Positions 24,579 through 37,974 of a DNA stretch of 64,000 nucleotides are shown one piece after another. The stretch is from a bacterium (GTDB taxonomy: Bacteria > Bacteroidota > Ignavibacteria > Kapaibacteriales > UBA7675). A model generated the notes under the pieces. The model worked only from the letters and a program-made list of their open reading frames with translations. It had not been told where the DNA came from and did no database searches. The stretch covers positions 124,001 to 188,000 of the forward strand of contig JAUIKM010000002.1 of the NCBI GenBank assembly GCA_030430495.1, given 5' to 3'. The position numbers and the translations under genes were made by a program. Every line of letters starts with the position of its first letter. Positions within the stretch are counted from its first letter, which is position 1.

Positions 24579-27500
24579 CTATCGCTGAATCCGAACCAGG
24601 CGTGTCTCAACCTGATCCGCGCCCGTGAACGTACAGAAGAACCACCCTGACGGTAGATCCACAATTTTCAGATCAAACGTCGAAGCGCCTTGCGCGAACG
24701 AGCCTTCGTGAATGTTGCGCACCCGGCGGCCCAGCACATCACTGAGCACCAGGCGCGCCGTCATGGCATACGGTAAATTCAATTCTATCGTCGCAGTCTT
24801 ATTGTCCGTCTGCACGATTCCGAACGCCAACGGCGCGCCCAACACAATCTGTCTGTGATCGGCGGCGCAAACCTCCGAGGCCGTGAACTCAAAGGCGGCG
24901 CGGCCCGCTGTTAAACACTCATCAAGCGTGAAATCGAAGATTTCCACCATGCTCTGGAGAGTATCGCCCAGCAGCGCCATAAACTCCAGCTCAAGCAGCG
25001 TTTCGCCGTCATATCCGGCCGGGCGCAGGCCGCGCAGATTGTGTTCGGCGAAACGGCGTGCACCGTCGACCACCGTGCGCGGCGCGGCCGGACTCAGCAG
25101 CTCCAGCATGGTCTGGTCGTAGCGCAGCGTGAGGCTGAAACTGCGCGCGTCGCCGGACGGCGCGGGCATGTTTTGTTTAACGGTCACGCGGAAGCTTGCG
25201 CCGGGATCGGCGGACATGGTCGCCGGTTCAAACTCAAGCTGAATGCCTTCCGCTTGTTCAACGAGCAGGGCGTCGCGGTGTTCACAGCCGCCGGCATCAA
25301 TCGCTGTGAGCGAAAGCATTCCTTCGGGCGTGGAAGTGTTTAACTCGATCGTCGGCGTTGCGGCTCCGTTTGACCATTGGTAGGATTTAAACTCATCGGC
25401 GACGCCGAGTTGCAGCGTCGCGTTGCAGAGTAAGACGTCGCCGCCGAGGTCGACGCTGTTTTCAACAACCGCGACAGTATTCGTTGAACTGCGCGCACAG
25501 CCGGAGGGCGGCACAACTTCGGCGCTTACTTCAATCGACTGCGTCGACTGCAACAGCGGCGCATTGAATCGAATATCAAGGCGCGGTTGCGGCGGATCGC
25601 CGGTCGGTGCAGCGCCCGCCAAGGCCAGCTTGTTTAACACAATGCCGGACGCATCCGCGCTGAAGTCGCTCCAGGCCGCGCCGTTCACGAAGACTTCGGT
25701 CGGCGCAGCCGCCAGCGGCGGCGTGCACCTGATGCGCAGCTCAAAGTTTTGCAGCGGCGCAAGGCTGCTGTTCGACAGGTCGAGCGCATACAACAGCCCG
25801 TTGTTGCGACAGGCGTTTATGTCCTGACGCAATCGCAGACCCGAACGCCGCGGCCGTAGCTCGGCGGCGGCCAGCACAAATTCCTCCGCACCGCGCCGCA
25901 CAATGTTGATGTAGTGCGGCAGGCCGTCGGCCAAGGCCGGATCGGCAACAACGCGCATGGTAAAAAAGCCGCAGCCGATGCTGTCGAATTGCAGGTCCGC
26001 CGGACGCGCCAGCAGCTCATCGTTGTTTAAGTCAAAGTCGCCGCTCAGGTACTGCACACCCGGCGGCAGCAGGGCTTTGAGTTCGAAGTTGAGCTCACTG
26101 TCCTCAAAGTCTTTGCAGACGCGAACCTGCACGTCGACCGGCGCACCGGCGCAGTCGTTCACCTGTTTAACAAAGGCTTTCACTTGTGCCGGAACGTAGG
26201 CGGCCAGCGGGATGAGTTCGAGATCGTCGAGGAGCACATCAATAAATGCACCGTCATTCCGCTCCGGCTCGCGAGATAGAAATAAGACCCATTGATCATC
26301 GCCCCCAATTAAAAATGGATCACTGACAACATTGGACCATTCAAATAATGGTGCATTCGAACCAAATTTCACTGCAGGGAAGTTCTCATCGGGTTCACGA
26401 AAGTCATTCTGTTCTCCGCAAAACGACACTGAATCAAAGTAAACGTGAATTTCGGGTTTGTCGAACGGCTGAGTCGAGTTGCCGAATCTGATAGGATAAA
26501 TTTTAGCTCTTACAATGTAGTTAATCCCTTGCATCCGATTACCGGCAAGATGTTGAAAGACTCCCTCTCTGTTCTCGATACAAAACAAATAGTAGAGATT
26601 CTTGGTGTCACTGTCCCAGGAATCTGGTCCAAACCGACTGATTGTAGGTGTTACATTGTCGTTTCTCTCAAAGGAGTCTGATTTATTAATACGTTCATAA
26701 ATATCGGGAGACCAAATCGGCATCCATCCTGAAGTTCTGGATACATCACCCGTGCATTCTGAACTTTCTAAGTCACCAAGAAATCCATTTGACAGTGACA
26801 ACTCAAAATCTCCATTACACAGCAAATTGACCGTCGGCCAGGTGCAGGGCGGTAAGGCCGGAAACTCAACTTCAAGAAAGACATAGGTGATGTTACCACT
26901 AAGTCCGCCGCGATGCGGCAGGTAGCGCAATACAATTGTACCGCGAAAACCCGGATCGGGGTCGATGACCAATTGCTCGCTGTTGTTTAAGTCCGTCCGC
27001 GACAGCAGCGCGCCGCTTGTGCCGAGCACTTCAAGACAGGCAATCTTGTCAGTGTTTACATCGTTGGCGGCCAGATCATCAAACGCCAGCACAATCGGCT
27101 CAGTCGAAACAAACGGTCCGGACGGACGGTCGTTAACACCCGCGGGCAATCCGCGGCAGACGGCATAGTCATCGCGAAAGCGCGTTGCATTGCCGGGCGT
27201 CCCATAGACGCCGCTGAGGGCATAGCCCAGGTCGCAGAGCGCGGCGACCTCGTCGGCATGCGGCAGACGTTTGATTTCACCGGGCCTGATTTCGTGATGC
27301 AGGACCCGTCCCATACCATCGGCGGCGCAGTTTTCATCAAAATGACTCAGGCTGCCGCCCGCGCGCCAGGGTTGCGGCGTGTAAACGGCCGCGTTGAACA
27401 GATTGACTCCGGCAAAAACAACCGGCGTGTTGGACTGTGAACAAGGCGTCTGCAACAGTGCGCGGTCGTAGGGCGCAGGATTCAGCTCGTAACAGCCGTT

Positions 27501-28226
27501 GTTCTGCGCCACCAGCGGCGTGAGGCCCGCGCTGGAATTTAACTGCAAAAAAGAGTCGTAGCGCGTGAACCAGTTTGTGCCGGCGAGTACCGAGTTGCCG
27601 TCCGCACCGATGAAAGAGGCCAGTCCAAGCGCATGCAGCATTTCGTGCAGCACGACCGAGTAGAGGTCGACATCGGTAAAACTGAGGGCGTCGGGATCGA
27701 GGTTAAAGGCATGCGCAAAGTTGATCACAATGCGCGCATGATGATCGGGTGTGCTGCTCCAGCCCGCGTATGGATCGCCGAGGGCATTGATCGCCTGCCA
27801 GAGTGCGCCGTCGAGCAGGCCGGTGTTGGACGCGCCGTCGACGCGGTAGACCGCCGAGGCAAAAGCCGCCGCATTGTCGGTCGGGTCGACGTAGGCTTCA
27901 ACACGAATACGCGCTGCGCCGGCATTCGCCGGACGATCAAACAACTGTGACAGGTCGGAGAGCACGGCGCAGACCACGGCGCAGCGCGCATCCCCAATCC
28001 CGCCGGGCGCGCTGAACAGGCCCGCTTCATCGACAAATTGCACTTCAAAGAAACCGGCGCGGCAGTCGGACGCGCCGAGCGTTTGATCCGGCGAATGTTT
28101 TGCGGCGGCCGGGACCGGGCGGCCGAGGCGATCAACCCAGGATTGCGCGCTGGATTCGGCGCGGAGCAGAGCCGTGAGGAGCAAAAACGCCAGGATTGCC
28201 GCGGCCGCGCGATATGTGTTTAACAT
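24579..28226 (-). CDS. Multidomain secreted metalloprotease-like T9SS protein, array copy C
   Basis: 1215 residues from the ATG at 28226 (a TTG at 28238 overlapping the previous stop is also possible). Signal peptide 1 to about 28 (AESSAQ). About 30-340 is a zincin domain with HEMLHALGLAS at 194-204; the third zinc ligand at the matrixin position is Ser, so it is probably the His of the later SLSHFDE, as in relatives with a distal ligand. About 470-665 is a galactose-binding/CBM-like core starting LLCNGDFE and ending LLDDLELIPLA. Then come a DUF11-like domain with CAGAPVDVQVRVCKDFEDSE, an Ig-like CHU_C module (SYQWSNGAATPTIEL), a cohesin-like domain (PGASFRVTVKQN, SLTLRYDQTMLELL) and the sorting domain. 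Its C-terminal sequence (NIHEGSFAQG...) differs from copies A and B. It is the last gene of the array. Expected to be a surface or released protease that binds glycans; activity untested. Confidence 0.82.
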   Translation of the reverse strand: MLNTYRAAAAILAFLLLTALLRAESSAQSWVDRLGRPVPAAAKHSPDQTLGASDCRAGFFEVQFVDEAGLFSAPGGIGDARCAVVCAVLSDLSQLFDRPANAGAARIRVEAYVDPTDNAAAFASAVYRVDGASNTGLLDGALWQAINALGDPYAGWSSTPDHHARIVINFAHAFNLDPDALSFTDVDLYSVVLHEMLHALGLASFIGADGNSVLAGTNWFTRYDSFLQLNSSAGLTPLVAQNNGCYELNPAPYDRALLQTPCSQSNTPVVFAGVNLFNAAVYTPQPWRAGGSLSHFDENCAADGMGRVLHHEIRPGEIKRLPHADEVAALCDLGYALSGVYGTPGNATRFRDDYAVCRGLPAGVNDRPSGPFVSTEPIVLAFDDLAANDVNTDKIACLEVLGTSGALLSRTDLNNSEQLVIDPDPGFRGTIVLRYLPHRGGLSGNITYVFLEVEFPALPPCTWPTVNLLCNGDFELSLSNGFLGDLESSECTGDVSRTSGWMPIWSPDIYERINKSDSFERNDNVTPTISRFGPDSWDSDTKNLYYLFCIENREGVFQHLAGNRMQGINYIVRAKIYPIRFGNSTQPFDKPEIHVYFDSVSFCGEQNDFREPDENFPAVKFGSNAPLFEWSNVVSDPFLIGGDDQWVLFLSREPERNDGAFIDVLLDDLELIPLAAYVPAQVKAFVKQVNDCAGAPVDVQVRVCKDFEDSELNFELKALLPPGVQYLSGDFDLNNDELLARPADLQFDSIGCGFFTMRVVADPALADGLPHYINIVRRGAEEFVLAAAELRPRRSGLRLRQDINACRNNGLLYALDLSNSSLAPLQNFELRIRCTPPLAAAPTEVFVNGAAWSDFSADASGIVLNKLALAGAAPTGDPPQPRLDIRFNAPLLQSTQSIEVSAEVVPPSGCARSSTNTVAVVENSVDLGGDVLLCNATLQLGVADEFKSYQWSNGAATPTIELNTSTPEGMLSLTAIDAGGCEHRDALLVEQAEGIQLEFEPATMSADPGASFRVTVKQNMPAPSGDARSFSLTLRYDQTMLELLSPAAPRTVVDGARRFAEHNLRGLRPAGYDGETLLELEFMALLGDTLQSMVEIFDFTLDECLTAGRAAFEFTASEVCAADHRQIVLGAPLAFGIVQTDNKTATIELNLPYAMTARLVLSDVLGRRVRNIHEGSFAQGASTFDLKIVDLPSGWFFCTFTGADQVETRLVRIQR

Positions 28227-28234
28227 CGGCAAGG

Positions 28235-31200
28235 TCAATCCACTCGCAGGGTTTCCGTCCGAACGCCTGACGCACTGTACAGACTGCAGAAATACAGGCC
28301 CGGCGACAGCATTGCTTCATTAACTGTAAATTCTTTCGCACCGGATTCAAGTTCACCGCTGAACACCGTCGCTACCCGGCGGCCCAGCACATCACTGAGC
28401 ACCAGGCGTGCCGTCATGGCATACGGTAAATTCAATTCTATCGTCGCAGTCTTATTGTCCGTCTGGACAATCCCGAACGCCAACGGCGCGCCGAGAACAA
28501 TCTGTCTGTGCTCGGCGGCGCAAACCTCCGAGGCCGTGAATTCGAGGGTTGTACGTCCAGCTGTTAAACAGTCGTCAAGCGTGAAGTCGAAGATTTCCAC
28601 TGCGTCTTGCAGCCTGTCGCCCAGCAGCGCCATAAACTCCAGCTCAAGCAGCGTTTCGCCGTCATACGCGGCGGGACGCAGGCCGCGCAGATTGTGTTCG
28701 GCATAACGACGTGCGCCGGCGACCACGGTGCGCGGCGCGGCCGGACTCAACAGCTCCAGCATGGTCTGGTCGTAGCGCAGCGTGAGGCTGAAACTGCGCG
28801 CGTCGCCCGTCGGCGCCGGCATGGTTTGTTTAACCGTCACGCGGAAGCTTGCGCCGGGATCGGCGGAAATGTTCGCCGGTTCAATGCTGAGCTGAATGCG
28901 TTCGGCTTGTTCGACGAGCACGGCGTCGCGGTGTTCACAGCCGCCGGCATCAATCGCTGTGAGCGAAAGCATTCCTTCGGGCGTGGAAGTGTTTAACTCG
29001 ATCGTCGGCGTTATCGCTCCGTTTGACCATTGGTAGGAACTGTACTCATCGGTCACGGCGAGTTGCAGCGGCGCGTCGCAGAGCAGCACATCGCCGCCGA
29101 GATCGACGCTGTTTTCAACGACTGTGACATTATTTGTTGTGCTGCGGGCACAGCCGGAGGGCGGCACAACTTCGGCGCTCACTTCCAGCGCTTGAGTAGA
29201 TTGTAAAATCGCTGCGTTAAAACGCACATCGAGGCGCGGGCGCGGCGGATCACCCGTCGGCGCAGCGCCCGCCAACGCCAGCTTGTTTAACACGATGCCG
29301 GACGCATCCGCGCTGAATTCACTCCAGACCGCGCCGTTCACCAATACTTCCGTCGGCGCAGCCGCCAGGGGCGGCGTGCAGGTCAGGCGCAACTCAAAAG
29401 ATGGCAGCGTTGCAAGACGTTTGTTTGACAGGTCGAGTGAATACCGAAGCCCGTTGTTGCGGCAGGCGTTTAACTCCTGACGCAATCGCAGACCCGAACG
29501 ACGCGGGCGCAGTTCGGCGGCGGCCAGGACAAATTCCTCCGCACCGCGCCGCACGATGTTGATGTAGTGCGGCAGTCCGTCGGCGAGCGCCGGATCAGCC
29601 GCGACGCGCATATTGAAGAAACCGCAGCCGATACTGTCGTATTGCAGCTCCGCCGGCCGCGCCAGCAGCTCATCGTTGTTTAAGTCAAAGTCGCCGCTCA
29701 GGTACTGCACGCCGGGCGGCAGCAGGGCTTTTAGCTCAAAGTCGATTTCGCTGTCCTCGAAATCTTTGCACACGCGGACCTGCACATCGACCGGCGCGCC
29801 GGCGCAGTCGTTCACCTGATTAACAAATGTTTTAATCTGTGCCGGCACGTAGGCGGCCAGAGGGATGAGTTCGAGGTCGTCGAGGAGCATGTTAACAAAG
29901 GCTTCGTCGTTTCGTACAGCGTCGCGCGGCAGGAAAAATATCCACTTGTCTTGTTCGGTTAAAACGAAGGGTTTGCTGACTGCTGTAGTCCAGGCAAACA
30001 AAGGCATGCCGGTACCAAGTTTGACATGCGGGGCGTCCCAGCGGCGATTGCGGTAATTGTCGTTTTCATCACAAAACGAGATTGAGTCAAAGTACACGCG
30101 GAGTTCAGGAATGTCGTAGGGAGCGTCGAAATTGCCGAATCTGATTGGATAACACTTCGCCCTGACAATGAATTGAGTGTTGAGCTGGGACTGTGTCGGT
30201 TCAATGGGTTGGAAAACGCCTTCAAAACCACTCACACCAAAAAGATAGTAATGGTTTTCCTTATAACTATCCCAGGAGTCGGGACCAAATCGATTTGAGA
30301 AAGAGTCGTCAAACACATTCTCGTCATCCCGGATAAATCTGTTCGTTTGATCGACTCTTTCATATAAATCAGGGGTTTTGATGGGAAACCATCCTTGAGT
30401 TCTTGTGAACTCGTTGAGACATTCAACAAGTCGCTCAACTCCCACAAACCCACTAGCCAATGAGTTCTCAAAACCCCCATTACACAGCAAGTTCGCCGTC
30501 GGCCAGGTACAGGGCGGCAAGGCCGGAAACTCAACTTCAAGAAAGACATAAGTGATGTTGCCGCTGAGTCCGCCGCCTTGCGGCAGATAACGCAGCACAA
30601 TCGTGCCGCGAAAACCCGGATCGGGGTCGATGACCAGTTGGTCTCCATTGTTTAAGTCCGTGCGTGACAGCAATGCGCCGCTGGTGCCGAGCACTTCAAG
30701 GCAGGCAATCTTGTCAATGTTACTATCGTTGGCGGCCAGATCATCAAACGCCAGCACAATCGGTTCTGTCGATAGATACGGCCCGGACGGTCGGTCGTTA
30801 ACGCCCGCGGGCAATCCATCGCAGGCGGCATAGTCGTCGCGAAAACGCGTTGCATTAACCGGCGTGCCGTAGACGCCGCTGAGGGCATAACCCAGGTCGC
30901 AGAGCGCGGCGACCTCGTCGGCATGCGGCAGGCGTTTGATTTCACCGGGCCTGATCTCATGATGCAGGACCCGTCCCATACCATCGGCGGCGCAGTTTTC
31001 ATCAAAATGACTCAGGCTGCCGCCCGCACGCCAGGGTTGCGGCGTGTACACGGCCGCGTTTAACAGATTGACTCCGGCAAAGACGACCGGAGCAGAAGTT
31101 TGTGAGCAGGGCGTCTGTAACAGTGCGCGGTCGTAGGGCGCAGGATTCAGCTCGTAACAGCCGTTGTTCGGCGCGACAAGCGGCGTCAGGCCCGCATTGA

Positions 31201-31891
31201 TGTTTAACTGCAAAAAAGAGTCATAGCGCGTGAACCAGTTTGTGCCTGCGAGGACCGAGTTGCCGTCCGCGCCGACAAAAGACGCCAAACCGAGTGCGTG
31301 CAGCATCTCGTGTAGCACAACCGAATAGAGGTCGACATCGCTAAAACTGACGGCGTCGGGATCGAGGTTAAACGTCTGTGCAAAGTTGATTACAATCCGC
31401 GCGTGATGGTCGGGTGTGTTGCTCCAGCCCGCGTATGGATCGCCGGGGGCATTGATCGCCTGCCAGAGTGCGCCGTCGAGCAGGCCGGTGTTGGACGCGC
31501 CGTCGACGCGGTAGACCGCCGAGGCGAATGCCGCCGCATTGTCGGTCGGGTCGGCATAGGCTTCAACGCGGATCAGCGCCGCGCCGGCATTCGCCGGACG
31601 ATCAAACAACTGTGACAGGTCGGAGAGCACGGCGCAGACGACGGCGCAGCGCGCATCCCCAATCCCACCGGGCGCGCTGAACAGGCCCGCGTCGTCGACA
31701 AATTGCACCTCAAAAAAACCGGCGCGGCAGTCGGCCGCGCCAAGCGTTTGATCCGGCGAATGTTTTGCGGCGGCCGGGACCGGGCGGCCGAGGCGATCAA
31801 CCCAGGATTGCGCGCTGGATTCGGCGCGGAGCAGAGCCGTGAGGAGCAAAAACGCCAGGATTGCCGCGGCCGCGCGATATGTGTTTAACAT
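28235..31891 (-). CDS. Multidomain secreted metalloprotease-like T9SS protein, array copy B (mosaic)
   Basis: 1218 residues, same domain order as copy C: zincin with HEMLHALGLASF, galactose-binding-like core, DUF11-like, CHU_C-like, cohesin-like and sorting domain. The signal peptide is identical to that of copy C, while the last 50 residues (after LSDVLGRRV) are identical to copy A, so this gene is a hybrid in its ends. Inside, some blocks match A (SGCARSTTNNVTVVENS) and some match C (LAFGIVQTDNKTATIEL); others are private (LATLPSFELRLTC). Its core (about 470-670) is nearer to A than to C, for example in P-I-E-P-x-Q-S-Q and SFCDEND. Eight bases separate its stop from the ATG of copy C. The same eight bases separate copy A from it, which points to tight translational coupling. 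Confidence 0.82.
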   Translation of the reverse strand: MLNTYRAAAAILAFLLLTALLRAESSAQSWVDRLGRPVPAAAKHSPDQTLGAADCRAGFFEVQFVDDAGLFSAPGGIGDARCAVVCAVLSDLSQLFDRPANAGAALIRVEAYADPTDNAAAFASAVYRVDGASNTGLLDGALWQAINAPGDPYAGWSNTPDHHARIVINFAQTFNLDPDAVSFSDVDLYSVVLHEMLHALGLASFVGADGNSVLAGTNWFTRYDSFLQLNINAGLTPLVAPNNGCYELNPAPYDRALLQTPCSQTSAPVVFAGVNLLNAAVYTPQPWRAGGSLSHFDENCAADGMGRVLHHEIRPGEIKRLPHADEVAALCDLGYALSGVYGTPVNATRFRDDYAACDGLPAGVNDRPSGPYLSTEPIVLAFDDLAANDSNIDKIACLEVLGTSGALLSRTDLNNGDQLVIDPDPGFRGTIVLRYLPQGGGLSGNITYVFLEVEFPALPPCTWPTANLLCNGGFENSLASGFVGVERLVECLNEFTRTQGWFPIKTPDLYERVDQTNRFIRDDENVFDDSFSNRFGPDSWDSYKENHYYLFGVSGFEGVFQPIEPTQSQLNTQFIVRAKCYPIRFGNFDAPYDIPELRVYFDSISFCDENDNYRNRRWDAPHVKLGTGMPLFAWTTAVSKPFVLTEQDKWIFFLPRDAVRNDEAFVNMLLDDLELIPLAAYVPAQIKTFVNQVNDCAGAPVDVQVRVCKDFEDSEIDFELKALLPPGVQYLSGDFDLNNDELLARPAELQYDSIGCGFFNMRVAADPALADGLPHYINIVRRGAEEFVLAAAELRPRRSGLRLRQELNACRNNGLRYSLDLSNKRLATLPSFELRLTCTPPLAAAPTEVLVNGAVWSEFSADASGIVLNKLALAGAAPTGDPPRPRLDVRFNAAILQSTQALEVSAEVVPPSGCARSTTNNVTVVENSVDLGGDVLLCDAPLQLAVTDEYSSYQWSNGAITPTIELNTSTPEGMLSLTAIDAGGCEHRDAVLVEQAERIQLSIEPANISADPGASFRVTVKQTMPAPTGDARSFSLTLRYDQTMLELLSPAAPRTVVAGARRYAEHNLRGLRPAAYDGETLLELEFMALLGDRLQDAVEIFDFTLDDCLTAGRTTLEFTASEVCAAEHRQIVLGAPLAFGIVQTDNKTATIELNLPYAMTARLVLSDVLGRRVATVFSGELESGAKEFTVNEAMLSPGLYFCSLYSASGVRTETLRVD

Positions 31892-31899
31892 CGGCAAGG

Positions 31900-34800
31900 T
31901 CAATCCACTCGCAGGGTTTCCGTCCGAACGCCTGACGCACTGTACAGACTGCAGAAATACAGGCCCGGCGACAGCATTGCTTCATTAACTGTAAATTCTT
32001 TCGCACCGGATTCAAGTTCACCGCTGAACACCGTCGCTACCCGGCGGCCCAGCACATCGCTCAGCACGATGTGTGCCCGCATGTGGGTGGGCGCGTTGAC
32101 TGAAACGCGCACTGTGCCGCCTTCCGCTTTAACAACTCCAAACGTCAAGGGCGCGCCGAGCACAATCTGTCTGTGATCGGCGGCGCAAACCTCCGAGGCC
32201 GTGAACTCAAGGGCGGCGCGTCCGGCAGTTAAACACTCATCAAGCGTGAAATCGAACACTTCTACCCTGCTTTGGGCCGTGTCCCCCAGCAGCGCCATGA
32301 ACTCCAGCTCAAGCAGCGTTTCGCCGTCATATCCGGCCGGGCGCAGGCCGCGCAGATTGTGTTCGGCGAAACGGCGTGCACCGTCGACCACCGTGCGCGG
32401 CGCGGCCGGACTCAGCAGCTCCAGCATGGTCTGGTCGTAGCGCAGCGTGAGGCTGAAACTGCGCGCGTCGCCGGACGGCGCAACCATGTTTTGTTTAACG
32501 GTCACGCGGAAGCTTGCGCCGGGATCGGCGGACACGTCCGCCGGATCGATTAACAATTGAATGCCTTCGGCTTGTTCGACGAGCACGGCATCGCGGTGTT
32601 CACAACCGCCGGCATCAATCGCTGTGAGCGAAAGCATTCCTTCGGGCGTGGAAGTGTTTAACTCGATCGTCGGCGTTGCGGCTCCGTTTGACCATTGGTA
32701 GGAATTGTACACATCAGCCACGCCGATCTGGAGCGGCGCATCGCAGAGCAGGACATCGCCGCCGAGATCGACGCTGTTTTCAACGACTGTGACATTATTT
32801 GTTGTGCTGCGGGCACAGCCGGAGGGCGGCACAACTTCGGCGCTCACTTCCAGCGCTTGAGTAGATTGTAAAATCGCTGCGTTAAAACGCACATCGAGGC
32901 GCGGGCGCGGCGGATCACCCGTCGGCGCAGCGCCCGCCAACGCCAGCTTGTTTAACACGATGCCGGACGCATCCGCGCTGAAGTCGCTCCAGGCCGCGCC
33001 GTTCACGAAAACTTCGGTCGGCGCAGCCGCCAGCGGCGGCGTGCACCTGATGCGCAGCTCAAAGTTTTGCAGCGGCGCAAGGCTGCTGTTCGACAGGTCG
33101 AGCGCATACAACAGCCCGTTGTTGCGGCAGGCGTTTAACTCCTGGCGCAATCGCAGGCCGGAACGACGCGGGCGCAATTCGGCGGCGGCCAGGACAAATT
33201 CCTCCGCACCGCGCCGCACGATGTTGATGTAGTGCGGCAGGCCGTCGGCGAGCGCCGGATCAGCCGCGACGCGCATGAAAAAAAAACCGCAGCCGAGACT
33301 GTCGTATTGCAGCTCCGCCGGACGCGCCAGCAGTTCGCCGTTGTTTAAGTCAAAGTCGCCGCTCAGGTACTGCACACCCGGCGGCAGCAGGGCTTTGAGT
33401 TCGAAGTCAAGCTCACTGTCCTCAAAGTCTTTACACACACGCACCTGAACGTCGACCGGCGCGCCGGCGCAGTCGTTGACTTGATTCACAAATGTTTTTA
33501 TCTGCGCCGGGACGTATGCGGCCAGCGGGATGAGTTCGAGGTCGTCGAGGAGCATGTTAATGAACGCGTCCGGATTGCGTACTGGATCATGCGGCAAAAA
33601 AAGCACCCATTTGTCATTTTCATCCAGCGTGAACGGTTCGCTCACGGCTGTCGACCATTCAAAAAGCGGTATTCCGGTGGCAAGCTTGATATAGGGGTCG
33701 TTGAAACGCCGGGTACGGTAGACATCGTTTTCATCGCAAAAAGAAATGGAGTCGAAATACACGCGTACTTCAGGTATGTCATAAGGTTGGTCGGAGTTGC
33801 CAAATCTGATCGGATAACACTTTGTCCTGACAATAAATTGTGTATTGAACTGCGACTGCGCCGGTTCAATGGGTTGAAAAACACCTTCAATACCACTGAT
33901 TCCGTAGAGATAAAAGCGATTATCAGGAAGCTTGTCCCAGGAATCCGGGCCAAATCTGTTCATGTGGGAATCGTCAGATACAAACTGATCGTGCCGAATG
34001 AACGTGTCACTATCTTGTATTCGTTCATAAATATCTGGCGAAAAGGTTGGAAACCAAGCCTGCATTCTCGTGAGTTCTTGATAACATGTCCGATCATCAA
34101 TATTCAAGTGACCACTCGTCAAAGAGTTCTCAAAATCCCCATTACACAGTAAATTAGCCGTCGGCCAGGTACAGGGCGGCAGGGCCGGAAATTCCACATC
34201 AATAAACACATAGGTGATATTGCCGCTTAACAGGCCGCGTTGCGGCAGGTAGCGCAGAACAATCGTGCCGCGAAACCCCGGATCGGGATCGACAGTCAAT
34301 TGTTCGCCGCTGTTTAAGTCCGTCCGCGACAGCAGCGCGCCGCTGGTTCCGATCACTTCGAGACAGGCAATCTTGTCGGTGTTAACATCGTTGGCGGCCA
34401 GATCATCAAACGCCAGCACAATCGGCTCAGTCGAAACAAACGGTCCGGACGGACGGTCGTTAACACCCGCGGGCAATCCATCGCAGGCGGCATAGTCGTC
34501 GCGAAAACGCGTTGCATTAACCGGCGCGCCGTAGACGCCGCTGATTGCATAACCAAGGTCGCAGAGCGCGGCGACTTCGCCCGCATGCGGCAGGCGTTTG
34601 ATTTCGCCTGGTGTGATTTCGTAATGCAAGACGCGTTCCAATCCATCGTCGGCGCAGTTTTCGTCGAAGTGGCTCAGACTGCCGCCCGCGCGCCAGGGTT
34701 GCGGCGTGTAAACGGCCGCGTTGAACAGATTGACTCCGGCAAAAACAACCGGCGTGTTGGACTGTGAACAGGGCGTCTGCAACAGTGCGCGGTCGTAGGG

Positions 34801-35544
34801 CGCAGGATTCAGCTCGTAACAGCCGTTGTTCGGCGCGACAAGCGGCGTCAGGCCCGCGTTGGAGTTTAACTGCAAAAAAGAGTCGTAGCGCGTAAACCAG
34901 GTGCTTCCGGCGAGGACCGAGTTGCCGTCCGCGCCGACAAAAGACGCCAGTCCAAGCGCATGCAGCATTTCGTGCAGCACGACCGAGTAGAGGTCGACAT
35001 CGGTAAAACTGACCGCGTCGGGATCGAGGTTAAAGGCATGCGCAAAGTTGATCACAATGCGCGCGTGATGGTCGGGTGTGTTGTTCCAGCCCGCATAAGT
35101 ATCGCCGCTTGAATTGATCGCCTGCCAGAGTGCGCCGTCGAGCAGGCCGGAGCTGGACGCGCCGTCGACGCGGTAGACCGCCGAGGCAAAAGCCGCCGCA
35201 TTGTCGGTCGGATCGACGTAGGCTTCAACACGAATACGCGCGGCGCCGGCATTCGCCGGACGATTAAATAGTTGCGACAGATCGGAGAGCACGGCGCAGA
35301 CCACCGCACAGCGCGCATCCCCAATCCCGCCGGGCGCGCTGAACAGGCCCGCTTCATCGACAAATTGCACTTCAAAAAAACCGGCGCGGCAGTCGGATGC
35401 GCCGAGCGTTTGATCCGGCGAATGTTTCGCGGCGGCCGGGATCGGGCGGCCGAGGCGATCGACCCAGGATTGCGCCTGTGAATCGACGCGGCCCAGGCAA
35501 ATCAGCAGTAGAACTGTCAGTATTTGTGAGAGTGTGTATTTCAT
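31900..35544 (-). CDS. Multidomain secreted metalloprotease-like T9SS protein, array copy A (promoter-proximal)
   Basis: 1214 residues from the ATG at 35544, where a signal peptide begins (MKYTLSQILTVLLLICLG); a longer frame to 35667 lacks one. This signal peptide is unlike those of B and C although the mature start QSWVDRLGRP is shared. The same domains follow: zincin HEMLHALGLASF, LLCNGDFE core, cohesin-like and sorting domain. The Met-turn region reads LERVLHYEITPGEI, with no Met at the usual place, so catalysis should be tested rather than assumed. Its 3' end, the 8-base spacer and the start of the next gene form a block identical to the one between B and C. As first gene it should carry the promoter, in the 177 bases before 35722. 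Confidence 0.82.
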   Translation of the reverse strand: MKYTLSQILTVLLLICLGRVDSQAQSWVDRLGRPIPAAAKHSPDQTLGASDCRAGFFEVQFVDEAGLFSAPGGIGDARCAVVCAVLSDLSQLFNRPANAGAARIRVEAYVDPTDNAAAFASAVYRVDGASSSGLLDGALWQAINSSGDTYAGWNNTPDHHARIVINFAHAFNLDPDAVSFTDVDLYSVVLHEMLHALGLASFVGADGNSVLAGSTWFTRYDSFLQLNSNAGLTPLVAPNNGCYELNPAPYDRALLQTPCSQSNTPVVFAGVNLFNAAVYTPQPWRAGGSLSHFDENCADDGLERVLHYEITPGEIKRLPHAGEVAALCDLGYAISGVYGAPVNATRFRDDYAACDGLPAGVNDRPSGPFVSTEPIVLAFDDLAANDVNTDKIACLEVIGTSGALLSRTDLNSGEQLTVDPDPGFRGTIVLRYLPQRGLLSGNITYVFIDVEFPALPPCTWPTANLLCNGDFENSLTSGHLNIDDRTCYQELTRMQAWFPTFSPDIYERIQDSDTFIRHDQFVSDDSHMNRFGPDSWDKLPDNRFYLYGISGIEGVFQPIEPAQSQFNTQFIVRTKCYPIRFGNSDQPYDIPEVRVYFDSISFCDENDVYRTRRFNDPYIKLATGIPLFEWSTAVSEPFTLDENDKWVLFLPHDPVRNPDAFINMLLDDLELIPLAAYVPAQIKTFVNQVNDCAGAPVDVQVRVCKDFEDSELDFELKALLPPGVQYLSGDFDLNNGELLARPAELQYDSLGCGFFFMRVAADPALADGLPHYINIVRRGAEEFVLAAAELRPRRSGLRLRQELNACRNNGLLYALDLSNSSLAPLQNFELRIRCTPPLAAAPTEVFVNGAAWSDFSADASGIVLNKLALAGAAPTGDPPRPRLDVRFNAAILQSTQALEVSAEVVPPSGCARSTTNNVTVVENSVDLGGDVLLCDAPLQIGVADVYNSYQWSNGAATPTIELNTSTPEGMLSLTAIDAGGCEHRDAVLVEQAEGIQLLIDPADVSADPGASFRVTVKQNMVAPSGDARSFSLTLRYDQTMLELLSPAAPRTVVDGARRFAEHNLRGLRPAGYDGETLLELEFMALLGDTAQSRVEVFDFTLDECLTAGRAALEFTASEVCAADHRQIVLGAPLTFGVVKAEGGTVRVSVNAPTHMRAHIVLSDVLGRRVATVFSGELESGAKEFTVNEAMLSPGLYFCSLYSASGVRTETLRVD

Positions 35545-35721: not shown

Positions 35722-37428
35722 CTATTCTTTCATCACCAGCACCGTGTTGGCTGTGTTACCCGTGCTGAGCACCTGCAAATAGTACTGCCCGTTCGGTTCG
35801 GAGTTGATGTCGACCGGGAAGTCAAACACACCCGTACCGAGCGAACCCAGATCGACGTTCAGAATCTCAAAACCGTAGAGATCGCTGATGTTGTAGGAGA
35901 CGTCCTTGGGCGCACTCAGATCAAGCCGCAGCGTGAACGCGCCGCCGGAGGGATTCGGCAGAATGAAAACGTCCGGCCGGTCGTTGTCGTCCTCGTCCTG
36001 CAGCGGGCAAGCGCCCAGTTCGATCGTCGCCTGCATCGTGCAGCCGCGCGCATCGATGACCGTGACGGTGATCGGCCCGCTGGGCCGCGGCACATTCGTG
36101 AACCAGTCGTAGTACTGCGCCGAATAATGCGACCACTCGTAGCTGTATGGTTCGACGCCGCCGCTAACGATCGCTTTGATCGTCGCCCAGCAGTCGACGC
36201 CGTATTGACCGCTCGTGTAGTCTTCGACCTCGAAGGTGATTTCGATGGGAGGGTCTTTGAGCGGATCTTCAATTTCTATGGAGAGCACCTTAGAACATCC
36301 ATTTGCGTCGGTGACGGTAACGGTATAGTCGCCAGGTTCCAGGTCAACCGGATTGAGTGGGTCGGCTGGGTTGAGTACGCCATCCAGCGGCTTAAACCAC
36401 TCCACCTCATATTCCGGCGTTCCGCCGGAAATCTCGATCTCGATGGCTCCGCCGCTTGTCGCACCGCAGGGGATGATGGCCGTCACCGCGGCCTCGACGG
36501 CGAGCAGGACGTCGGATTCCTTGATTGTGAACGGATAGTCGGTTTTGCACAGGGCGTTATCGTCGAGCGCGTCGACCCGGACCACATATGTGCCGGGAGC
36601 CAGGTTGTCATAACCCGTCACGCCTTCCGCGTATTCGGTCAAGGGCACCAGTGTCGGCTGTGAGTTGTCGTAGAGCCGATGTTTGTAGGGCAGTCGCATG
36701 GCGCCGGCCGTGCCGCCGATGGTATTGAAACTGATGCTGCCGTCGGCCGACCCGGTGCAGGTAACATCCTTTACGACAACGTCGATCAGCTCGGCATGGT
36801 CGAAGAGGTACAGTTCCTCATCGTAACAGCCGTTGTCGTCGATCACACGCAGGGTGTAGTAGCCGCGTTCGGGAAAATTCAGGCTGTCGTGGGTTCCCAC
36901 AAGATTGCCGTCGGCGTCGTACCAACGGTAGTCAAGCGATCCGACGCCTCCCTTGGATTTGGCGCAGGCATAGTCTGCGGTAGAGCACATACTTGAGACA
37001 CATCTCAGATAACCGTCAATGCAATACGGCCCCTGGTCCAATTCGATCGCGACGGTGTCGCAACAGCCGTAATAGTCACAGACTTCAATGAAATGACCGC
37101 CGCGGCAATAACCCGTCACTTCAATAATGCTGCTTTCGCCGTCGGTAAATTGTGGTTCTTTCTGGTCCAGATTGCCCCAGTCGGGAATAAACTTCCAACT
37201 GACGGGCCACTTGCCTGGAGCCACGTCAATCTGAATACGCGCGCCGGCCGACTTGTAGCAGTCATCGACGGTACTGGGAAAAATTTCCAGCACCGTCACC
37301 GTCGGCGGCGTACAGGTTTGAGACGTGACGGTGATTGTTGTCGGCGGGCCGAGCAGGGCCAGGACAAGGCAAAACATGGCGAGATGTCCGGGCGAAAAAA
37401 TCGCCGCGCGTTTGCTTTGAAAAGACAT
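35722..37428 (-). CDS. Secreted SprB/PKD-repeat protein with T9SS sorting domain
   Basis: 568 residues from the ATG at 37428, chosen because it precedes a signal segment (MFCLVLALLGPPTTITVTSQ). After a Cys-rich N-terminal part (about 35-170, with paired C-C and C-x-x-C spacing) come repeats of SprB type: VTCTGSADGSISFNTIGGTAG, LAPGTYVVRVDALDDNALCKTDYPF, then GGAIEIEISGGTPEYEVEWF with LEPGDYTVTVTDANGCSK, and a further SGGVEPYSYEW with VTVIDARGCT. SprB repeats occur in Bacteroidota surface adhesins, including gliding-motility proteins. The C-terminus from about 480 (ILPNPSGGAFTLRL, ISDLYGFEILNV, NGQYYLQVLSTG) is a T9SS sorting domain. It lies upstream of the triple array on the same strand, 177 bases away, so cotranscription is possible. 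Confidence 0.82.
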   Translation of the reverse strand: MSFQSKRAAIFSPGHLAMFCLVLALLGPPTTITVTSQTCTPPTVTVLEIFPSTVDDCYKSAGARIQIDVAPGKWPVSWKFIPDWGNLDQKEPQFTDGESSIIEVTGYCRGGHFIEVCDYYGCCDTVAIELDQGPYCIDGYLRCVSSMCSTADYACAKSKGGVGSLDYRWYDADGNLVGTHDSLNFPERGYYTLRVIDDNGCYDEELYLFDHAELIDVVVKDVTCTGSADGSISFNTIGGTAGAMRLPYKHRLYDNSQPTLVPLTEYAEGVTGYDNLAPGTYVVRVDALDDNALCKTDYPFTIKESDVLLAVEAAVTAIIPCGATSGGAIEIEISGGTPEYEVEWFKPLDGVLNPADPLNPVDLEPGDYTVTVTDANGCSKVLSIEIEDPLKDPPIEITFEVEDYTSGQYGVDCWATIKAIVSGGVEPYSYEWSHYSAQYYDWFTNVPRPSGPITVTVIDARGCTMQATIELGACPLQDEDDNDRPDVFILPNPSGGAFTLRLDLSAPKDVSYNISDLYGFEILNVDLGSLGTGVFDFPVDINSEPNGQYYLQVLSTGNTANTVLVMKE

Positions 37429-37974
37429 AAAATCATACCTTTGGTTTGATATTGTATGCACGGTGATCGGCCGTCCGTGGAAATCGTCGTCAAACATATT
37501 CCGCGGCGGTCGTTTCACCAATTATTGCGATATGTCAATTGCTGTAGCCACAGAATAGCAGCGACACCGTCTGTGATTTTGAATGTGGGACGTTAAATCA
37601 CTGGTCGGCGCGAAGTTGGGAGTTCCCTGGTGGACGCCTGCTTTGAATTGGTACAGGCGGCCGAAGGGCATGCTGGGGAGCAATAGCCGCCAAGATAAAT
37701 GAATCAGGAAAATTATCCAAGATAAGTTTTGGTTTTGGGTGAATTTTCCTACAGTCGACATTCTTTTCACCCAAGATCAGTCAGAGTATCAGTCGAGTTG
37801 AGGCACGGCACGGCAGGACCGAGTTCGTTGTCAGTACGATCGATTCCCTACCACGGTCGCCTGGTTCTGTGATATTGCCAGGAAACGCCGTTTGATCCCA
37901 ATTGTGTTAAACAAATGCAGGTCCTGGAAAATACCCCGTCTGCAGATATGGTACAGTACTTCACGTGAGCGAGG
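37429..37974. other. Intergenic stretch, no supported gene
   Basis: About 550 bases between two minus-strand genes. An 82-codon minus-strand frame here has a low-complexity composition and no family features, so I do not call it. The part near 37430-37520 should carry the promoter of the SprB-type gene. Confidence 0.4.

Follow-up and report, generated by a model that had tools for sequence, protein, structure and literature searches.

For the cleaved-adhesin domains of Porphyromonas gingivalis Lys-gingipain, RgpA and HagA, variants and domain-level exchange have been reported; the variation described there lies between strains, and the adhesin modules are repeats within one protein (PMC5266723). 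Silent-cassette antigenic variation such as that of Treponema tprK combines an unchanging frame, one or more variable internal segments, and gene conversion between homologous sequences (PMC10063172). Here we describe a comparable locus in a bacterium of the Kapaibacteriales (Bacteroidota; GenBank assembly GCA_030430495.1): a tandem array of three genes, g3, g2 and g1, within a stretch of 64,000 nucleotides (contig JAUIKM010000002.1, positions 124,001 to 188,000), hereafter called the window. Each gene encodes a metalloprotease-like frame that looks exported, judging from its sequence, and that surrounds a strongly diverged domain of about 205 residues running from CNGDFE to DDLEL, which we call the core.

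The locus resembles the gingipain adhesins in that the Kgp adhesin structures K3 and K1 were among the fold matches of the core, but differs from them in that a single genome has seven or more paralogues, each with one module. The gingipain protease belongs to another family than that of this frame. With tprK the locus shares a constant frame, a variable internal segment and conversion between homologous sequences; unlike in silent-cassette systems of the tprK type, all seven cores sit in the frame, no silent donors were found, and the ratio of nonsynonymous to synonymous substitution (dN/dS) in the core is low. The modelled fold of the core is like that of CBM4, CBM16 and CBM22 (Pfam CBM_4_9), and the core of one homologue (L078) passes the Pfam cut-off, whereas the window's own cores go unrecognised by the Pfam model. 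In the open-access literature searched we found no description of homogenised tandem paralogues with a variable or escaping domain, and for Kapabacteria together with type IX secretion only work on hot-spring carbohydrate-active enzymes.

Results

Core and frame have different histories

Comparison of g1, g2 and g3 over windows of 50 codons gave, for the frame without head and tail, protein identities of 76–100% and a proportion of synonymous differences (pS) of 0–0.56; in the core, identity was 42–62% in 11 of 12 windows, with pS of 0.63–0.92, and 86% in one g2–g3 window. The borders at NGDFE and LLDDLEL were sharp to about 20 codons, as assayed by the mean of five copies from this genome in 20-codon windows. 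On entering the core at NGDFE, pS rose from about 0.36 to 0.71, the proportion of nonsynonymous differences (pN) rose from 0.02 to 0.34, and the GC content at third codon positions (GC3) fell from 0.64 to 0.35; on leaving it at LLDDLEL, pN fell from 0.17 to 0.03, pS also dropped back, and GC3 rose from 0.56 to 0.75. Overall, pN in the core was about 2–10 times that in the frame. Fourfold-degenerate sites behaved in the same way: differences were 0.05–0.32 in the frame segments of all copies but 0.50–0.92, near saturation, between core types in most pairs, with lower values in the second half of the core for g2–C10b (0.34) and C10b–C50 (0.45). Within one core type (g3, C10a and C50, second half) they were 0.24–0.31, as in the frame. 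Outside the original prediction, the last 75 or so residues at the C terminus form another diverged module, which occurs in two types, of which g2 has a hybrid.

Because synonymous differences vary so much along one gene, its segments must have different histories, and these different coalescence times are not explained by a greater tolerance of amino acid change in the core. We concluded that the discontinuity between core and frame is real and sharp. This bears out the original prediction, made from the window's sequence, of a strongly diverged core between conserved borders in a near-constant frame; the uniform divergence along the genes that would have spoken against it was not seen.

The core is AT-rich

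The prediction that an AT-rich core lies in a GC-rich frame also held. Core GC was 0.43–0.47, with GC3 of 0.40, 0.51 and 0.49 in g1, g2 and g3, versus GC of 0.61 and GC3 of 0.69–0.71 outside the core; across the five full cores of the genome GC3 was 0.39–0.51. Among 134 windows of 200 codons drawn from long open reading frames (ORFs) of the 64 kb (mean GC3 0.70, standard deviation 0.10, a mean that the frame equals), the lowest GC3, 0.40, was that of the g1 core; g2, whose stop-to-stop frame overlaps g1, was for that reason omitted from this set. In other genomes, core GC3 was below that of the rest of the gene in 8 of 12 distinct homologues, mostly by 0.1 or less, so that the AT bias may in part be intrinsic to the core. 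These 12 came from 27 scanned loci after omission of L080 (a near-copy of L079), L062–L064 (the same genes as L082, L085 and L086), L088 (core on separate ORFs) and the loci without an NG(G/D/S)FE core in the ORF. The AT-richness is thus explained only in part.

Cores and frame segments assort independently

The window lies on contig C63 of an 80-contig, 5.6-Mb genome. A genome-wide core profile search gave seven matches, three in the window, one on contig C23, two on C10 (C10a and C10b) and one on C50; all seven sit in the same frame, making at least seven gene copies, and no free-standing or silent donor core was among them. The end of C47 holds another C-terminal part, which may come from the gene that is interrupted where C10 ends on its left.

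The longest shared runs of polymorphic sites were tested against 2000 permutations, a procedure that ignores clustering of constraint. In the N-terminal frame of four copies (220 polymorphic sites) the observed run was never reached for five of six pairs and was reached 106 times for g1–C23; in the C-terminal frame plus tail of six copies (462 sites) it was never reached for 12 of 15 pairs, once for two pairs, and 52 times for C10b–C50. The mosaic does not come from constraint alone, because the partner changes along the gene. Core and frame distances were uncorrelated (Mantel r −0.35 with five copies and −0.39 with six); the cores most alike are those of g3 and C10a, yet these two are tied as the most distant pair in the N-terminal frame. 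The C50 core is identical to the C10b core over its first 127 nucleotides and g3/C10a-like thereafter, a splice that may owe something to assembly, since 127 nucleotides is the exact overlap of two contig ends. These results supported the conclusion that, among the copies of this genome, the type of core is combined with frame segments independently, which is cassette-like behavior.

Elsewhere in the genome, arrays close with cut-off heads of the gene. On C47 (L050, 4048–4605) the first 110 or so codons, truncated, are joined in a different reading frame to the last part of a GyrI-like gene, apparently an array remnant or deletion scar, and on C23 (L047, 3490–3640) a second head of about 45 codons followed by a stop, also an array remnant, lies after the last copy. 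Immediately past the last copy, C63 (24480–24620) and C50 (L049, 3640–3770) have similar flanks, so a single locus may have been duplicated, flank included, to give both arrays.

Each core is conserved

For the whole core, dN/dS could be computed in 3 of 10 pairs and was 0.09–0.16; it was 0.11 in the first half (computable in one of three pairs), 0.06–0.10 in the second half (all seven pairs tried) and 0.05–0.09 in the last 78 codons (four pairs). The corresponding frame values were 0.11–0.18 for the N-terminal frame (10 pairs) and 0.16–0.23 for the C-terminal frame (15 pairs). In the seven whole-core pairs with saturated synonymous sites, pN/pS was 0.25–0.43. Low dN/dS together with nearly saturated synonymous sites indicates an old difference, with each core conserved. 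Positive selection on, or hypervariability of, the core was ruled out wherever dN/dS could be computed, and the suggestion that the cassette serves for changing ligands or avoiding recognition was consequently not supported. A diversity-generating retroelement, for which no search was made, is unlikely given the saturated synonymous change and low dN/dS.

The domain in other genomes

Among 123 genomes of the order, a protease-core profile matched at E ≤ 1e-8 in this genome and in eight of the 122 others searched, each of the eight having one locus. A 395-genome draw of the phylum gave six matches at 1e-20; it yields no copy number, because at most two candidates were scored per genome. Protease and core stood in one ORF in 12 distinct homologues. 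Genomes with the protease–Ig-like–core architecture belong to Kapaibacteria/Ignavibacteria, other Bacteroidota and Acidobacteriota, and the relatives detected by homology were mostly Ignavibacteria/Kapaibacteria metagenome assemblies. A contig scan with g1 detected no close relative, and a second, alignment-based scan gave distant homologues only.

The ratio of core to frame protein distance was 3.6–9.3 in nine of ten pairs within the genome (1.4 for g3–C10a) and 0.6–2.6 in eight comparisons between genomes; the intrinsic speed of the core therefore does not explain the ratios within the genome. All five full cores from this genome fall into a single clade (support 100/100), as do its frames (95/98), and thus no exchange with the sampled genomes was seen; the g2 core is only 16–25% identical to the 12 outside cores in the alignment. 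Of the idea of a constant exported frame with a variable cassette, the part concerning assortment within the genome is supported and the part concerning exchange with other genomes is not. Of the pattern that would have spoken against the idea (related genomes with the same cores at the same positions and no exchange), one half was seen: a homologous domain does occupy the same position in other genomes, with exchange only between the copies of this genome.

Two of the outside loci differed in layout. In a Bacteroidetes metagenome-assembled genome (L088, 13426–17535) three ORFs in tandem, each starting with an NG(D/S)FE domain, come after a related protease ORF and make up a further tandem family of these domains. 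At L053 (genome G018, about position 1700) the homologue is split by a frame change, with a TGA inside the protease region, reflecting either a broken gene or a sequence error.

Domain identities

The g2 core, modeled alone, gave a pLDDT of 67 and a pTM of 0.73, the first 80 or so residues being weak. Its best Foldseek match was CBM22 (E 3.6e-05, probability 1.00), with CBM16 and CBM4 further down and TM scores of about 0.3–0.4 by query length; VIA-align returned meprin, CBM36 and CBM22 (Z about 10, root-mean-square deviation about 3, 117–143 residues aligned). In a 652-residue model that includes the protease, the g1 core matched CBM4-2 and others, and the Foldseek results for this model were dominated by CBM-type beta-sandwich matches. 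Beta-sandwich domains of insecticidal proteins also appeared in the fold lists and were taken as shared fold only. The models support a CBM4/CBM16/CBM22-type (galactose-binding-like) beta-sandwich for the core, a shared fold that is not proof of sugar binding. When strands were compared with the remainder, 25 of 66 strand positions but 28 of 123 non-strand positions were invariant, loops thus being the more variable (Fisher p 0.04).

Sequence profiles gave less. None of the three window cores matched Pfam CBM_4_9 (PF02018), which at E ≤ 1 matched two of 15 aligned cores, L078 (31.8 bits, above the cut-off) and L079 (below it), and the six Pfam families listed at that threshold for the 15 cores did not include DUF642. 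A sequence-profile search of solved structures found no match up to E 5 with protease plus core, and with the core alone only matches at E 0.14 and 0.7, which were not used. The original guess of a CBM4/9- or DUF642-type domain was therefore supported by the CBM4-like fold in the model, but by no sequence match of the window cores to PF02018 or DUF642.

In the frame, HExxH, the LG that follows it and a distal histidine (residue 299 of the g1 ORF) were invariant in 15 of 15 aligned homologues, and the distal histidine probably binds zinc. NF038122 (metallo_LGF) scored 25.4–27.9 bits for g1–g3 (E 1.3e-05 to 2.3e-06), short of its cut-off of 80, and Pfam Peptidase_M10 scored 12–13 bits for g1 and g2, below its cut-off of 24. 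For the C-terminal sorting domain TIGR04183/Por_Secre_tail (cut-off 23) the scores were 14.1 for g2, 14.8 for g3, 13.7 for C23 and 21.3 for C50, with no match at E ≤ 1 for g1; a homologue in genome G011 reached 27.5 bits.

Organization of the array

The three genes lie in tandem on the minus strand in the order g3-g2-g1, together spanning 24579–35544, and all are open (Table 1). The sequence around the g2/g1 junction is the same as that at g3/g2 and closely like the junctions in contigs C10, C47 and C23. Since the ATGs of g2 and g1 each follow a stop codon by 8 nucleotides in the same sequence context, the three genes are probably co-transcribed. Upstream of the array, on the same strand, a gene at 35722–37521 has SprB repeats and a near-cut-off sorting domain of the type IX secretion system (T9SS).

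Table 1. Coordinates of the array features, counted from the first nucleotide of the window
Feature	Position	Strand	Remarks
g3	31900..35544	-	First gene of the array; ATG at 35544
g3 parts			Signal-peptide-like start, HExxH metalloprotease-like domain, Ig-like region, core, C-terminal frame, possible T9SS-type tail
g3 core	33532..34146	-	CNGDFE to DDLEL; GC 0.45; homologous to the g2 core and so probably a CBM4/16/22-like beta-sandwich
g3/g2 junction	31892..31902	-	Same as the g2/g1 junction
g2	28235..31891	-	Second gene; architecture of g3; ATG 8 nt past the g3 stop codon
g2 core	29867..30484	-	GC 0.47; modeled alone
g2 tail	28238..28456	-	Recombinant: g1-like at first, then without any difference from g3 at 99 polymorphic sites (147 nt)
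g2/g1 junction	28227..28237	-	Stop codon and 8-nt spacer, then ATG
g1	24579..28226	-	Last gene; architecture as g2 and g3; C-terminal tail of a different type
g1 core	26214..26819	-	GC 0.43, most AT-rich of the three; modeled with the protease region
g1 zinc-binding motif HEMLHALG	27624..27647	-

Discussion

On balance we favor, as the probable explanation, amplification of the array with homogenization of the frame by recombination, which anciently diverged and individually conserved CBM-like cores escaped. Closely spaced tandem arrays would have arisen in this lineage by amplification of a gene that was present as a single copy and encoded an exported, metalloprotease-like protein bearing a CBM-like domain, the CBM-type cores having already diverged into several types beforehand. 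Gene conversion and unequal crossing-over would keep the protease, Ig-like and C-terminal parts of the frame alike, as the mosaic segments and low synonymous divergence indicate, and the sequence difference between cores would block conversion at the domain edges. Selection would keep each core type intact, as its low dN/dS shows, and occasional recombination, as seen in the contig-end copies, may move or splice cores. The outcome would be a constant exported chassis with several fixed, distinct ligand-binding modules at once.

Several observations weigh against this explanation. All four of the extra core-bearing genes are incomplete at contig ends, and two of the seven cores are cut. The ends of C10 and C50 have exactly 127 nucleotides in common, the mark of an assembly-graph fork, and splices found only there could therefore reflect assembly or strain mixing. 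The Mantel tests had low power with five and six copies, and a same-genus relative was absent among the genomes searched. Synonymous divergence of the core was saturated, and dN/dS not computable, in 7 of 10 whole-core pairs, so an early burst of positive selection could have accompanied the split of the types. Finally, core GC3 lies under both the frame and the window mean, so that missing homogenization alone is insufficient for the AT-richness.

That last point leads to the main rival, in which homologous recombination at the conserved borders exchanged the cores for those of close relatives that are AT-rich and unsampled. Such import would bring both saturated divergence and low GC, and fits the drop in GC3 from about 0.70 to 0.39–0.51, the breaks, which lie no more than about 20 codons from the edges of the domain, and the lack of correlation between core and frame. 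We nevertheless think it unlikely: given the single clade of the five full cores and their distance from the outside cores, as measured for g2, the donors would all have to come from one unsampled group, and the lower core GC3 in most outside homologues makes the AT bias perhaps partly intrinsic. Diversifying selection on a rapidly evolving domain, for new ligands or for evasion of phage, predator or host, agrees with the elevated core pN and with the greater variability of loops than of strands, but the core dN/dS of 0.05–0.16 where computable, and the pN/pS of the saturated pairs, make it quite improbable. Least probable of all is a local mutation hotspot or AT-biased mutation confined to the core with ordinary paralogue divergence elsewhere, since, although synonymous and nonsynonymous change climb where AT content does, the border coincides with a protein domain, the frame is a mosaic, which no hotspot would produce, the core/frame ratio stays low when genomes are compared, and cores of one type differ only as much as the frame at fourfold sites.

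To return to amplification with escaping cores, the cores may bind glycans, different ones in different types, with all copies being made together. It is then possible, though we hold it rather doubtful, that one bacterium displays, together and without switching, proteases that share one recombination-homogenized chassis but differ in their glycan-binding heads, each of these being anciently conserved, where recombination at domain edges can splice heads and divergence insulates the specificity domain from conversion.

The array provides a clean case in which a protein-domain boundary is also the boundary of concerted evolution, the frame and the binding domain of one gene differing in history. 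Should different core types bind different glycans, arrays of this kind would give uncultured Bacteroidota a means of holding many specificities simultaneously on one secreted protease. Domain-bounded synonymous saturation within homogenized paralogues may serve as a pattern for genome-wide searches for the specificity domains of unknown proteins.

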